Translations under genes and position numbers: made by a program
Assembly (NCBI GenBank): GCA_029098065.1
Contig: JAQXNP010000055.1
Span: 1-13,001, forward strand
DNA length: 13,001 bases
Origin: Clostridiales bacterium
GTDB lineage: Bacteria; Bacillota; Clostridia; Oscillospirales; Oscillospiraceae
Direction: 5' to 3'
Part shown: positions 308 through 12,714 of the stretch, in pieces
Numbering within the stretch: the first letter of the stretch is position 1
How the letters are laid out: every line of letters begins with the position of its first letter
The notes under the pieces: generated by a model
Seen by the model: the letters and a program-made list of their open reading frames with translations, nothing else
Database searches by the model: none
Told to the model about the DNA's origin: nothing

Positions 308-1939
<1,632 letters not shown>

Positions 1940-5895: not shown

Positions 5896-6342
5896 ATGCC
5901 CTGGCTTCCCAGTGCGGTATGGTTGGTGCTGCTCGTTCTTTTCGGAGCAGCGGAGGCGCTCACAGTGGGGCTTGTTTCCATCTGGTTTGCCGCAGGCGCC
6001 CTTGCCGCTCTGCTCTCCACCTTTTTCACAGACAACGTGTGGCTCCAGGCCGTTATTTTTCTGGCGGTCTCCGCCGTCACACTGGCCCTGGTCCGTCCTC
6101 TGGCCCGGAAATACTTCTCCCCCAGCCGGACGGCCACCAATGCCGACCGGCTCATCGGCCGGAACGCCCTTGTCACCGAGGAGATCGATGACTTAACCGC
6201 CACCGGCGCGGTAAAAATTGATGGGGCTGAATGGACCGCCCGGTCCGAGTCCTCCGCTCCGATCCCGGTTGGAGAAACTGTCACCATCCTTCGTATCGAG
6301 GGAGTGAAGCTCATCGTAGCTCCCGTCCACAGAAAGGAGTAA
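5896..6342 (+). CDS. NfeD-like membrane protein (short NfeD1b/YbbJ type)
   Basis: A 148-residue inner-membrane protein. Hydrophobic segments at about 6-24, 27-43 and 48-67 are followed by a cytoplasmic OB-fold region (about 84-145) with the typical IGRNALV ... GAVKIDGAEWTARSES ... IPVGETVTI pattern and final GVKLIVAP. Short NfeD proteins lack the N-terminal ClpP-like protease domain and bind SPFH partners in lipid domains. ATG 5896-5898 has AAAGGAG ahead of it. The stop is 5 bases before the SPFH gene, whose ribosome site (GGAG 6336-6339) is formed by the last codons of this gene, so the two are coupled. Longer in-frame starts upstream would read into the promoter and are rejected. Confidence 0.88.
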   Translation: MPWLPSAVWLVLLVLFGAAEALTVGLVSIWFAAGALAALLSTFFTDNVWLQAVIFLAVSAVTLALVRPLARKYFSPSRTATNADRLIGRNALVTEEIDDLTATGAVKIDGAEWTARSESSAPIPVGETVTILRIEGVKLIVAPVHRKE

Positions 6343-6347
6343 AAGTC

Positions 6348-7295
6348 ATGCCATTCTTCAAAGCGTTCATCCCCCTTGTTCTGGTGATCCTCGTTCTCCT
6401 GATCCTGGCTTTTAACATCAAGGTGGTCCAGCAGTCCCGCGCCTATGTGGTGGAGCGGCTGGGCGCTTTCCACTCCGTCTGGGGGGTGGGCATCCACTTC
6501 AAGATCCCCTTTATCGAGCGGGTGGCCAAGGCGGTCTCCCTGAAGGAACAGGTGGTGGATTTTGATCCCCAGCCCGTCATCACCAAGGACAACGTCACCA
6601 TGCAGATCGACACGGTCATCTATTTCCAGATCACCGATCCCAAGCTCTATACCTATGGTGTGGAGCACCCCATGTCCGCCATCGAAAACCTCACCGCCAC
6701 CACGCTCCGGAACATCATCGGCGAGCTGGAGCTGGATCAGACCCTCACCAGCCGGGATATCATCAACTCCAAGATGCGCTCTCTGCTGGACGAGGCCACC
6801 GATCCCTGGGGCATCAAGGTCAACCGGGTGGAACTGAAGAACATCATGCCCCCCAAGGACATCCAGGAGTCCATGGAGAAGCAGATGCGGGCCGAGCGGG
6901 AACGCCGGGAGGCCATCCTTCAGGCCGAGGGCCAGAAACAGTCTCAGATCCTGGTGGCCGAGGGCGAAAAGCAGTCCGCCATCCTGAAGGCCGAAGCCGC
7001 CAAGGAGGCCGCCATCAAGAAGGCCGAGGGCGAAAAGGCGGCCCGGATCATGGCCGCCGAGGCGGAGGCCCAGGCGATTCTTCAGGTCCAGCAGGCCACC
7101 GCTCAGGCGCTGAAGCTGCTGAACGAGGCCGCCCCCACCGATCAGGTGGTGAAGCTGAAGGCTCTGGACGCCTTCGCCAAGGCTGCCGACGGAAAGGCCA
7201 CCAAACTCATCATTCCCTCTGAGATCCAGGGATTGGCCGGTCTGGCCGCCAGCGCCAAAGAGCTGCTCACCGACGCAGAGAAAAACGGCAAATAA
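6348..7295 (+). CDS. SPFH/Band 7 (stomatin-paraslipin, QmcA-like) membrane protein
   Basis: A 315-residue flotillin/stomatin-family scaffold protein. One N-terminal membrane helix (residues 5-23) is followed by the SPFH domain (about 25-180: VVQQSRAYVVERLG, GIHFKIPFIERV, ITDPKLYTYGVEHP, MRSLLDEATDPWGIKVNRVE). Then comes a charged helical coiled-coil built of five 11-residue repeats starting xAE (192-246), and a small C-terminal domain ending in LLTDAEKNGK. Such proteins form large membrane-bound rings and are thought to organise membrane domains and guard membrane proteins. The start at 6348 is chosen because it gives the membrane helix at once and has GGAG at 6336-6339; an earlier in-frame ATG at 6231 lies inside nfeD. 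The nfeD-SPFH order matches E. coli and Bacillus partner pairs. Confidence 0.93.
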   Translation: MPFFKAFIPLVLVILVLLILAFNIKVVQQSRAYVVERLGAFHSVWGVGIHFKIPFIERVAKAVSLKEQVVDFDPQPVITKDNVTMQIDTVIYFQITDPKLYTYGVEHPMSAIENLTATTLRNIIGELELDQTLTSRDIINSKMRSLLDEATDPWGIKVNRVELKNIMPPKDIQESMEKQMRAERERREAILQAEGQKQSQILVAEGEKQSAILKAEAAKEAAIKKAEGEKAARIMAAEAEAQAILQVQQATAQALKLLNEAAPTDQVVKLKALDAFAKAADGKATKLIIPSEIQGLAGLAASAKELLTDAEKNGK

Positions 7296-10892: not shown

Positions 10893-10926
10893 GGGGCCGC
10901 CGGCAAAAGCCGGCGGCCCCGTTTTT
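10893..10926 (+). terminator. Intrinsic terminator of the glf-glycosyltransferase operon
   Basis: A 12-bp perfect GC stem (10893-10904 with 10909-10920), AAAA loop, and GTTTTT at 10921-10926. The T-run overlaps the stop codon (10925-10927) of the converging regulator gene. On the minus strand the hairpin has no T-run, so it would stop the converging transcript poorly. Confidence 0.93.
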
Positions 10927-11509
10927 ATGTTCTGACCCGGAACAGCCCGTGGCGGTTGCAGCAGGCGTACACCACCGCTCCCGGCCAGCGGGAGAGGCTG
11001 GCCTCAGCCGGCTGCTCGGGGTAGAGCTTCACCAGCTCCAGGCGGTCAAAACGAATCTGGGCGATGAAGGAAATAAAATGTCCCTTTTCCATGGGGTGAT
11101 CCAGAGTGACATGCGTGCGGCCATCCCACTCTTCCACATGGATCTCATGCGCCCCGTCGGGCTCCTCCGCCTCCAGGGGCGGCAGGGCCACGCCGCAGCA
11201 GTGGAAGGCTCCCTCCCCCATGGCGTGGATCACGTTTCCGCATACCGGGCAGACATAGAACCTCCCCCGCAGGGGGTTGGCCGAGCGGTTGCGGTTGGTG
11301 ATCTGCTCCCCGGAGAGGAGCTCCGCCACGCTCACCCCCAGCGCCGCGCCCAAGGGCTCCAGCAGAGACAGGTCCGGCAGGCCCCGGCCTGTCTCCCACT
11401 TACTCACCGCCTTGTCTCCCACCCCGATGCGGTCGGCCAGCTGTTTCTGCGTGTATCCCTTTTTCTCCCGGAGGGTCCTGATGGTGGCTCCGGTCACATA
11501 GCTGTTCAT
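10925..11509 (-). CDS. XRE-family HTH domain fused to a two-iron desulfoferrodoxin (superoxide reductase) domain
   Basis: A 194-residue three-part protein. Residues 7-66 form an XRE-type HTH (TQKQLADRIGVGDKAVSKWE). Residues 84-112 form a desulforedoxin-like knuckle with C87-x2-C90 and C104-C105; the gap is 13 residues where classical desulfoferrodoxin has 15. Residues about 118-192 match superoxide reductase: His121, HPMEKGH (His138, His144) and CNRHG (axial Cys184, His187) give the expected four-His one-Cys iron site. The Glu-Lys pair just before the first His in classical enzymes is replaced by Gly-Ala. Superoxide reductases reduce superoxide to peroxide in anaerobes. With an attached DNA-binding domain the iron centres could sense superoxide or redox state, act as an enzyme, or both. 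ATG 11507-11509 has GGAG at 11519-11522, and a private promoter lies at 11539-11567. An HTH-Dx-SOR class has been recognised in SOR classification, as I recall, so the architecture is rare rather than new. Confidence 0.9.
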   Translation of the reverse strand: MNSYVTGATIRTLREKKGYTQKQLADRIGVGDKAVSKWETGRGLPDLSLLEPLGAALGVSVAELLSGEQITNRNRSANPLRGRFYVCPVCGNVIHAMGEGAFHCCGVALPPLEAEEPDGAHEIHVEEWDGRTHVTLDHPMEKGHFISFIAQIRFDRLELVKLYPEQPAEASLSRWPGAVVYACCNRHGLFRVRT

Positions 11510-11510
11510 G

Positions 11511-11541
11511 GATCATCTCTCCTTTCACTTCCGAGACGATC
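11511..11541. promoter_or_regulatory. Candidate operator dyad at the HTH-desulfoferrodoxin promoter
   Basis: GATCATCTC (11511-11519) and GAGACGATC (11533-11541) form an inverted repeat with 8 of 9 positions matching and 13 bases between. It spans the end of the -10 element, the predicted start and the ribosome site, where a dimeric XRE protein could repress its own gene. Because transcription should start near 11532, the upstream arm is mostly absent from the RNA, so this is more likely a DNA site than an mRNA hairpin. Confidence 0.5.
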
Positions 11542-11567
11542 ATAGCAGACCCCAGGCCGGACGGCAA
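11539..11567 (-). promoter_or_regulatory. Sigma-A promoter with extended -10 for the HTH-desulfoferrodoxin gene
   Basis: On the minus strand: -35 TTGCCG (11562-11567), 17-base spacer, -10 TATGAT (11539-11544) preceded by TGC as an extended -10. The -35 begins right after the stop codon of the upstream regulator (11569-11571). No terminator separates the two genes, so both independent and read-through expression are possible. Confidence 0.75.
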
Positions 11568-11568
11568 C

Positions 11569-12714
11569 CTACGCTTCGTAGAGGGGGTCCTCCTCCGATT
11601 CCGCCGCCGGCGTCTTTCTGACCAGGGTCAGCCCGGCGAAGGCGAGCCAGATCCCCGCCGCGATCCCGGCGAAGAGGGCGGTGGCCCAGGATCCCCAGCC
11701 CACAGGGATATACCGGATCCCGGTCCCGCTGACCGCGGCCGCCTGATAGGGGATGAGCCCTCTGGAAACCTCGGACCACATGCAGGGATACTGCCGTAAG
11801 CCCAGCATCATCCAGCACGCCGCCGTCAGCAGCCAGGCGGGAGGAATGTACCGCCGCAGCCCCTTTTTCAGCAGAGGAAGGACCGCCAGCGCCCCCAGGA
11901 CCACCAGCCAAAGGGCGAAAAAGGTCTCCTGGCTGTAGAGGACGCCCGGCATTCGGGGAGACAGTGCCCTCCAAACCGCCGGAAGCCAGAAGAGTCCCGC
12001 CAAAACAGGGGCCAGAGCGGGCAGGCTCTTTCGGAGCCCCGGCCGGCGCCAGGACAGGGTCCGGCCCCCGCCGGGCCTCTCTTTCCCGGAGGCCGATGGC
12101 CCGCCGAAGCTCTTCCGCCATACCGCGTACTGGGTAACAGCAGTGAGGGCCAGTCCCGCCAGGACCGTCAGCGCCATCGCCTGGGCCCGGTGTTCGATGG
12201 CCCAGAACAGATACCGGCTCAGGTTCTCACTCACCCCGACGGACATGGCCGCCAGCCTCGACACGCAGCCCCTGGTGACGGACAGGTTCACCCCCAGGTT
12301 CACCACAGCCTCCCCCAGAAAGAACCAGCGGCTCTGATAGGCGTAGTATTTCTGAAGATACACGCCGTAAGCCAAACAGCCCAGATAGGCCAGATAGCAC
12401 AGCGGGGCGGGCATGAACAGATCCAGCAGAAAATAGAGCACGCCGCCGCCCAAAGCAAAGGCGAAGGACAGCAGATTCTGCCAGTCCGCCTTTGTCAGCG
12501 TCCGGACGGGCCGCTTGTCATCCAGGAGGTCGTCCACCGTCACCCCCAGCGCCCGGGCCAGGGGGACCAGCACCGGCACGTCGGGGTAGCCGCCGCCGCT
12601 CTCCCAGCGGGAGACCGTCTTATCGCTGACCCCGATCTGCTCCGCCAGTTCCTGCTGGGTCAGATTCTTTTCTATTCTATATCGCCTGAGTCGTTCGCCG
12701 AAGCTCTGTTCCAT
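11569..12714 (-). CDS. XRE-family HTH domain fused to a multi-pass membrane region
   Basis: A 381-residue membrane-anchored putative regulator. Residues 5-66 are an XRE HTH (LTQQELAEQIGVSDKTVSRWE) of the kind shared with the downstream regulator. The rest is hydrophobic with about seven or eight likely membrane segments: roughly 81-100, 104-120, 130-146, 165-172 (weak), 180-198, 233-250, 264-282, 293-307 and 342-364, with a basic Gly/Ser/Arg-rich cytoplasmic linker at 200-230 and an acidic tail. I do not recognise the membrane part as a transporter or enzyme; HTH-membrane proteins of this layout are common in Clostridia and are usually unassigned. ATG 12712-12714 has AAGGAG at 12724-12729. 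Its leader of about 105 bases contains alternative inverted repeats, and its promoter lies at 12826-12855. Confidence 0.88.
   Translation of the reverse strand: MEQSFGERLRRYRIEKNLTQQELAEQIGVSDKTVSRWESGGGYPDVPVLVPLARALGVTVDDLLDDKRPVRTLTKADWQNLLSFAFALGGGVLYFLLDLFMPAPLCYLAYLGCLAYGVYLQKYYAYQSRWFFLGEAVVNLGVNLSVTRGCVSRLAAMSVGVSENLSRYLFWAIEHRAQAMALTVLAGLALTAVTQYAVWRKSFGGPSASGKERPGGGRTLSWRRPGLRKSLPALAPVLAGLFWLPAVWRALSPRMPGVLYSQETFFALWLVVLGALAVLPLLKKGLRRYIPPAWLLTAACWMMLGLRQYPCMWSEVSRGLIPYQAAAVSGTGIRYIPVGWGSWATALFAGIAAGIWLAFAGLTLVRKTPAAESEEDPLYEA

Follow-up and report, generated by a model that had tools for sequence, protein, structure and literature searches.

The 13,001-nucleotide stretch of DNA analysed here (the window) encodes on its minus strand a 194-aa protein in which an XRE/P22-c2-type helix-turn-helix (HTH) domain is joined to a desulfoferrodoxin fold (HTH-SOR; 10925..11509, stop included), and nearly all of the family's genes that were compared have a palindrome, CTACGnnnCGTAGGTTG, upstream, as revealed by a listing of the upstream DNA. 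This palindrome at the HTH-SOR promoter is a new finding of the present analysis. Sequence comparison makes direct autoregulation by HTH-SOR highly probable; the fuller reading, an autorepressor gated by its iron site whose output in the window's lineage is its own SOR-like domain, has about an even chance of being correct.

The XRE/Cro-CI type HTH comprises residues 1-68 (11306..11509, minus strand), with the recognition helix at about residues 32-39. It is followed by a desulforedoxin-like (Dx) part (residues 82-112; 11174..11266, minus strand), carrying C87, C90, C104 and C105 as CX2C-X13-CC, and by the superoxide reductase (SOR) domain (residues 113-194; 10928..11173, minus strand) with ligands H121, H138, H144, C184 and H187. 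HTH_3 matches residues 10-64 with 56.3 bits against a gathering score of 23; the only HTH families above their cut-offs are HTH_3, HTH_31 and HTH_26, none of MerR type. The Dfx match covers residues 79-191, downstream of the HTH. These matches and the conservation of all nine ligands confirm the original prediction of an HTH fused to a complete desulfoferrodoxin. The same order, an N-terminal HTH, then desulforedoxin, then the SOR unit, defines the HTH-Dx-SOR class named in 2011 in SORGOdb, with 19 of 325 proteins (PMC3116461), in agreement with the original remark that this architecture had appeared in SOR surveys. The available text of that paper gives the architecture only and no operator, target or function. 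No functional study was found among open-licence papers, nor was a regulator role for HTH-SOR, and the class name occurs only in PMC3116461, as far as the accessible text of these papers goes. HTH-SOR is not described in the accessible portions of PMC12724145, PMC11980386, PMC4046663, PMC3828012 and PMC3317640. Two other regulators were considered and set aside: according to the parts of the reports available, TrtA of Treponema denticola is a 104-aa protein, its tail having no match (PMC12724145), and OseR of C. difficile belongs to the Spx family (PMC11980386); neither is a member of the HTH-SOR family. For PerR, OseR and OxyR, the accessible sources describe a response to peroxide or oxygen rather than to superoxide.

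The family is large. The protein search returned at least 8000 candidates at E 0.001 or better, the best 120 listed having 61% identity or more, while weak matches beyond these 120 could rest on the HTH alone. In the genome collection, relatives were present in at least 560 of at least 595 pattern-matched stretches, and the best 80 were kept; taxa among these 80 include Clostridia, Oscillospiraceae, Lachnospiraceae, Coriobacteriaceae, Adlercreutzia, Collinsella, Gordonibacter, Treponema, Acidaminococcaceae and others.

In the window, a ribosome-binding site, AAAGGAG, precedes the gene (11519..11525, minus strand), and a GC-rich hairpin terminator (10893..10920) separates it from the convergent gene, thus leaving HTH-SOR without a co-transcribed downstream partner. 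The gene upstream (11569..12714, minus strand) encodes another XRE protein, whose long C-terminal part looks membrane-spanning from its sequence. A survey of 61 loci (19 of the 80 were dropped, the gene not having been placed by the crude caller; single-neighbour counts rest on 58-59 loci) found no conserved gene neighbours of HTH-SOR, the largest cluster comprising 3 of 61 loci.

The predicted operator of the window, CTACGAAGCGTAGGTTG (11565..11581, minus strand), has 0 mismatches to the family consensus; it overlaps the -35 box and contains the stop codon of the XRE gene upstream. The promoter reads TTGCCG-17-TATGAT with TG before the -10 box (11539..11567, minus strand). Across the window and the 80 loci, 19 operators have no mismatch, 38 have one, 13 two, seven three and two four. 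Sites with up to two mismatches therefore occur in 70 of 81 upstream regions vs. 0 of 1620 shuffles, and with up to four in 79 of 81 vs. 71 of 1620 (9 at three, 62 at four); the two regions without a site are no longer than 53 and 59 bp. The original prediction placed the DNA site at 11511-11541, which differs from the conserved site at 11565-11581. The inverted repeat GATCGTCTC...GAGATGATC at 11511-11541 is present in the window but was not seen by eye in the close relatives L002-L005, and it was set aside.

A -10 hexamer lies at one fixed offset from the palindrome in 96 of 109 cases, which puts the palindrome centre near -43 and its right arm over the -35 box. The TG of an extended -10 element is found at its place in 45 of 109, while 19 other offsets have 1 to 25, all but one of them 11 or fewer; this suggests a promoter that would be strong by itself and hence subject to repression. 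A site centred near -43 would suit an activator too, and we consider repression the rather likely sign of the autoregulation. P22 c2 and SinR type XRE repressors likewise combine this HTH fold with a palindromic site over the -35 box, but the partner domain of HTH-SOR is a predicted iron redox protein.

The operator is not confined to close relatives. Four consensus variants were scored 20-130 bases upstream of 135 distinct proteins (136 rows, L018 and L122 being identical). Eight of the 63 genome-search loci (L100-L104, L114, L118 and L119) are repeats or fragments and fall outside these rows, and the upstream DNA set lacks seven of the 57 HTH-SOR genomes of the class sample described below (G094, G158, G178, G203, G220, G243 and G250), of which G158 has a site beside HTH-SOR in the class scan. 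Sites were found at up to two mismatches for 108 proteins, at three for 13 and at four for two, compared with 1, 15 and 130 of 1340 shuffles; thus, sites with up to three mismatches lie directly upstream in 121 of 135 cases vs. 16 of 1340 shuffles. Four-mismatch sites are so common in shuffles that the direct sites of L188 and L194 are no better than chance and were not counted. With a one-mismatch site 133 bases upstream of L008 and eight sites heading operons that end in HTH-SOR (L133, L180, L183, L188, L190, L191, L192 and L193), an operator of this type, clade variants included, stands at the head of 130 of the 135 distinct transcription units (121 + 1 + 8). The remaining five are L030 and L040, cut by contig ends, the chimera L113, L194 with its weak match, and L181, for which no site in promoter position was found in about 5 kb of partly masked DNA, the one one-mismatch match being inside another gene. 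Operator variants go with protein similarity, as judged by eye: CTACGGnnCGTTTATTG and TAAACGnnnCGTGGATTG occur in divergent members and CTACGGnnCGTGGATT[GA] in the set with an AAA-ATPase operon. Viral contigs contain 45 exact matches to the operator pattern, a 14-base pattern for which chance matches are expected in so large a collection.

A natural exchange in the window's genus bears on direct autoregulation. L113 (G009:C16:26900-28100) is a hybrid HTH-SOR gene made of two neighbouring XRE genes. Its residues 1-42, recognition helix included, match the window's adjoining XRE protein at 34 of 42 positions and HTH-SOR at 21 of 42; from residue 43 onwards it matches HTH-SOR at 28 of 31 and the adjoining XRE protein at 13 of 29. 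Its upstream DNA resembles that of the XRE gene (69 of 101) rather than that of HTH-SOR (39 of 80), and it lacks the CTACG palindrome. Such an arrangement would be expected from recombination between two adjacent HTH genes. The joint exchange of the DNA-reading half and the promoter is what direct autoregulation predicts, in a single case. Covariation is less telling. Plain mutual information for operator position 1 ranks K22, D32, K16 and R42 highest, all in the HTH, but the tree-aware test (1000 random placements on the C-terminal tree; about 190 residues, p uncorrected) does not place them at the top and gives p 0.003 for A77 and R186. For position 4, D32 comes second in the same test, next to I70 and T132 (p 0.004; of 12 changes, 5 coincide where 1.3 are expected). 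The test establishes no clear coupling of the recognition helix to operator bases; it was not used as support and, if anything, weighs against the gated autorepressor.

The genome of the window (90% complete) contains one site at up to two mismatches; the bare palindrome has one exact place, 11565-11581, and 11 places with one mismatch. Among 60 relatives, 15 with HTH-SOR, all five exact sites belong to HTH-SOR genes; the 13 one-mismatch sites divide into five at HTH-SOR and eight in genomes without it, the reversed control giving 21. Five HTH-SOR genomes lack such a site: G009 with the chimera, G013, in which the gene is cut by a contig end, G016 with two mismatches, and G030 and G038, whose divergent proteins have divergent sites, that of G038 being weak. 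With the promoter included in the pattern, 16 genomes of the genus yield eight sites with up to one mismatch, all at HTH-SOR, none with two, and 14 three-mismatch sites elsewhere vs. 37 in the reversed control. Each HTH-SOR genome of the genus in which a site was found (8 of 10) has one, and no second operator target was seen in the window's genome or in these 16.

In the class sample, HTH-SOR at E 1e-25 or better is present in 57 of 293 genomes, about a fifth. Of 38 sites with up to one mismatch, 14 are at or heading HTH-SOR units (hand count); of the others, five lie in the 57 genomes with HTH-SOR, and 18 of the 236 genomes lacking it contain 19, so that site density outside HTH-SOR units is equal whether or not the gene is present. 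Three of the five were inspected, two lying inside genes and one before a gene. By hand count, 43 of the 57 HTH-SOR genomes also encode a stand-alone SOR (E below 1e-10), so the SOR output may be redundant, a point against the gated autorepressor; some PF01880 match is present in 137 of the 236 genomes without HTH-SOR. The window's genome itself has a canonical Dx-SOR (L001, G000:C34:6576-6830) with Glu-Lys and X15, and the best operator match at that locus has five mismatches.

The metal sites were compared with those of 2Fe-SOR (desulfoferrodoxin; 1dfx, 2ji1, C. difficile Sor). HTH-SOR shares its fold, the four Cys of centre I, the five ligands of centre II (the histidines H121, H138, H144 and H187 and the cysteine C184) and the HX5H and CX2H spacings. 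It differs in being fused to a DNA-binding domain, in lacking the Glu-Lys pair, in scoring below the cut-off of the curated 2Fe-SOR profile TIGR00320 (44 vs. 146.9 bits) and in three spacings. The 2Fe-SOR motif in the available text of PMC11980386 is (E)(K)H(x)19-27H(x)5H(x)40-63C(x)2H, whereas the window protein reads GAH-x16-H-x5-H-x39-C-x2-H, with Gly-Ala in place of Glu-Lys and with x16 and x39 outside the ranges. Likewise, the accessible part of PMC3116461 gives CXXCX15CC for the Dx domain in general, so that X15 may not define the HTH-Dx-SOR class itself; the window protein and 125 of 136 rows have X13.

As the original prediction stated, the four desulforedoxin cysteines and five SOR ligands are present, and they are all but invariant in the window and its 80 best relatives: C87, C90, C104, H121, H138, H144 and C184 are conserved in 80 of the 80, C105 and H187 in 79, the exceptions being one C105H and one H187Q. 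The phmmer alignment sets H124 over the first SOR histidine; H121 was preferred, since all 80 relatives have it and position 124 varies. The residues before H121 are another matter. Glu two positions before it is present in 34 of 81 near homologues and Lys directly before it in 2 of 81, compared with Glu-Lys in 31 of 31 stand-alone SORs, a canonical sample (the 30 best-scoring PF01880 loci of the class sample and the window genome's own SOR) that says little on Dx spacing, 30 of 31 being without a detected Dx motif. The scarcity of this Lys argues against the gated autorepressor. One SOR is reportedly described, in the title of a study cited in PMC3116461, as functional without the glutamate, so the loss of Glu in HTH-SOR is no proof of lost catalysis. 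It had been proposed that the short Cys spacing and missing Glu-Lys pair mark a shift from catalysis to sensing. Loss of Lys and X13 spacing did prove family-wide, and Glu persists in 34 of 81, but the five SOR ligands hardly vary in the window's clade, so that such a shift is a possibility only. Near-invariant SOR ligands together with the sole predicted self-target suit a sensor and an enzyme that adjusts its own supply equally well.

Some divergent members, whether solo or in multi-gene operons, have relaxed ligands. In 55 further, mostly more divergent members, H121 is kept in 45, H138 in 55, H144 in 52 and C184 in 52; H187 is present in 43, with Asp in nine, and C105 in 49, with His in six. 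Over the 136 rows three Dx cysteines are invariant (136/136) and the fourth is Cys or His. Most SOR ligands are gone in L180, L198 and L199, and five solo members (L150, L196-L199) lack the first SOR histidine. In L133 (operon) and L139-L142 (solo), Asp for H187 is paired with His for C105, a combination that would alter the ligand set of both metal centres. Judged from these alignments, the SOR site is less durable across divergent members than the operator and the Dx cysteines, which suggests that DNA binding would be the wider role and weakens a purely enzymatic reading. That the operator stays where ligands are lost or altered also speaks against the gated autorepressor.

Taken as a mechanism, HTH-SOR would be a one-component autoregulator. 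Its XRE domain, presumably dimeric, would bind the palindrome at 11565-11581 over its own -35 box, and bound HTH-SOR would most likely repress its own promoter. A change in the state of a site presumed to hold iron (oxidised, superoxide-exposed or emptied) would loosen DNA binding, giving more HTH-SOR under superoxide or iron stress. In the window's lineage its own gene is the only predicted target, and the SOR-like domain, which may retain residual SOR activity, would be both gauge and useful product; self-targeting and the retention of all SOR ligands suggest that the domain is also the output. Gating of DNA binding by the metal sites seems to us somewhat more probable than a mechanism lacking it, and superoxide as the natural signal is a tentative proposal, the less favoured part of the scheme. 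Thus, of the earlier idea of a superoxide-sensing regulator, the metal-site DNA-binding regulator finds support in the conserved operator and the joint exchange of HTH half and promoter, and superoxide itself stays an inference. Superoxide reductases contribute to the survival of air by anaerobes.

The best-surviving alternative, although we regard it as fairly unlikely, is a pure redox sensor, an anaerobe's counterpart of SoxR, which would have a non-enzymatic SOR domain and control defence genes, its own gene being one target among them. SoxR belongs to the MerR family and carries a 2Fe-2S cluster, while HTH-SOR would be a redox-iron transcription factor of the XRE type with mononuclear-iron type sites; as with SoxR, pump and flavin-reductase genes lie behind its operator in some lineages. 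Operators with a good promoter do stand before other genes there. In fifteen hand-picked genomes with variant operators, 12 of 21 sites are at HTH-SOR, seven inside other reading frames and two at a well-formed promoter, one in front of a DUF2087 gene (G215), the other in front of a CAT-like gene (G197); DUF2087 is also found in an operon behind the operator in G265. G156 has a gene of the FMN-reductase family behind the operator, within its HTH-SOR operon, and G545 has one in trans, on another contig (the two are 31% identical); in G670 the operator also precedes an MFS gene, nearest to Mef macrolide pumps and below their cut-offs. In a scan of the phylum, 52 of 398 genomes had sites. Of 24 genomes chosen visually for the quality of their sites and then tested, 19 encode HTH-SOR; the site lies directly before the gene in 12, at the operon head in six and elsewhere in one (G595). 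The operator also heads operons of the form 117-aa protein - DUF6530 - AAA_5 ATPase - HTH-SOR, and shorter forms, in which the first SOR histidine is absent in 9 of 14 members; this and the missing Glu-Lys suit a non-enzymatic domain. The absence of a second target in the window's genome and genus and the near-constant ligands of the window's clade argue against the pure sensor.

The operon loci are L331, L332, L334, L335, L339, L341, L350, L351 and L352, with an ATPase of about 680 aa and a 117-aa protein without a Pfam match. DUF6530 is absent from L333; L333 and L352 have the ATPase split over two frames, and in L350 transposase-like frames interrupt it. Family searches covered the proteins of L335 and L334 plus a single 116-aa protein of L346; the remaining operons were matched by protein starts. 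In L337 (G635:C14:27300-28700), an HTH-less Dx-SOR frame lies about 330 bases behind an operator-like site with no HTH readable between; it is possibly a decayed copy or a trans target.

Taken more broadly, HTH-SOR may represent a large family of transcription factors by which strict anaerobes respond to superoxide, with a retuned SOR centre as sensor. The switch would be self-directed in most lineages seen, making one protein the sensor, scavenger and regulator, and in others it would be wired to flavin reductases, efflux and the AAA-ATPase operon; we put this below an even chance. The conserved operator provides a searchable mark for targets of the family.

Two further readings have a low probability. 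HTH feedback might merely hold the level of an enzyme constant, the SOR domain scavenging independently of DNA binding; the single self-target in the genus and the near-invariant ligands of the window's clade accord with such an enzyme, while retention of the operator before other genes in other lineages, and in L198 and L199 despite the loss of SOR ligands, does not. Just as improbable is a sensor of metal availability, in which the signal is not superoxide but whether iron (or zinc) fills the Dx and SOR sites. The persistence of the Dx cysteines where SOR ligands are gone would suit it; however, no iron-uptake gene is among the few extra operator-headed genes inspected, and a five-ligand SOR site would be needless. 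That the palindrome belongs to another regulator, HTH-SOR being merely one target, is very improbable: XRE proteins often have unlinked targets and helix-operator covariation gave no clear link, but the 293 class genomes show no excess of sites outside HTH-SOR units in those bearing the gene, operator variants follow protein similarity as judged by eye, and L113 exchanged HTH half and promoter together.

Elsewhere in the window, groEL reads in two frames (308-1330 and 1343-1933, minus strand) with a break between about 1330 and 1343, either a frameshift or an assembly error, and a groES-like frame is intact at 1983-2267. At 5912-7295 (plus strand), the translations read as a small NfeD-like membrane protein followed by an SPFH/stomatin-like protein.
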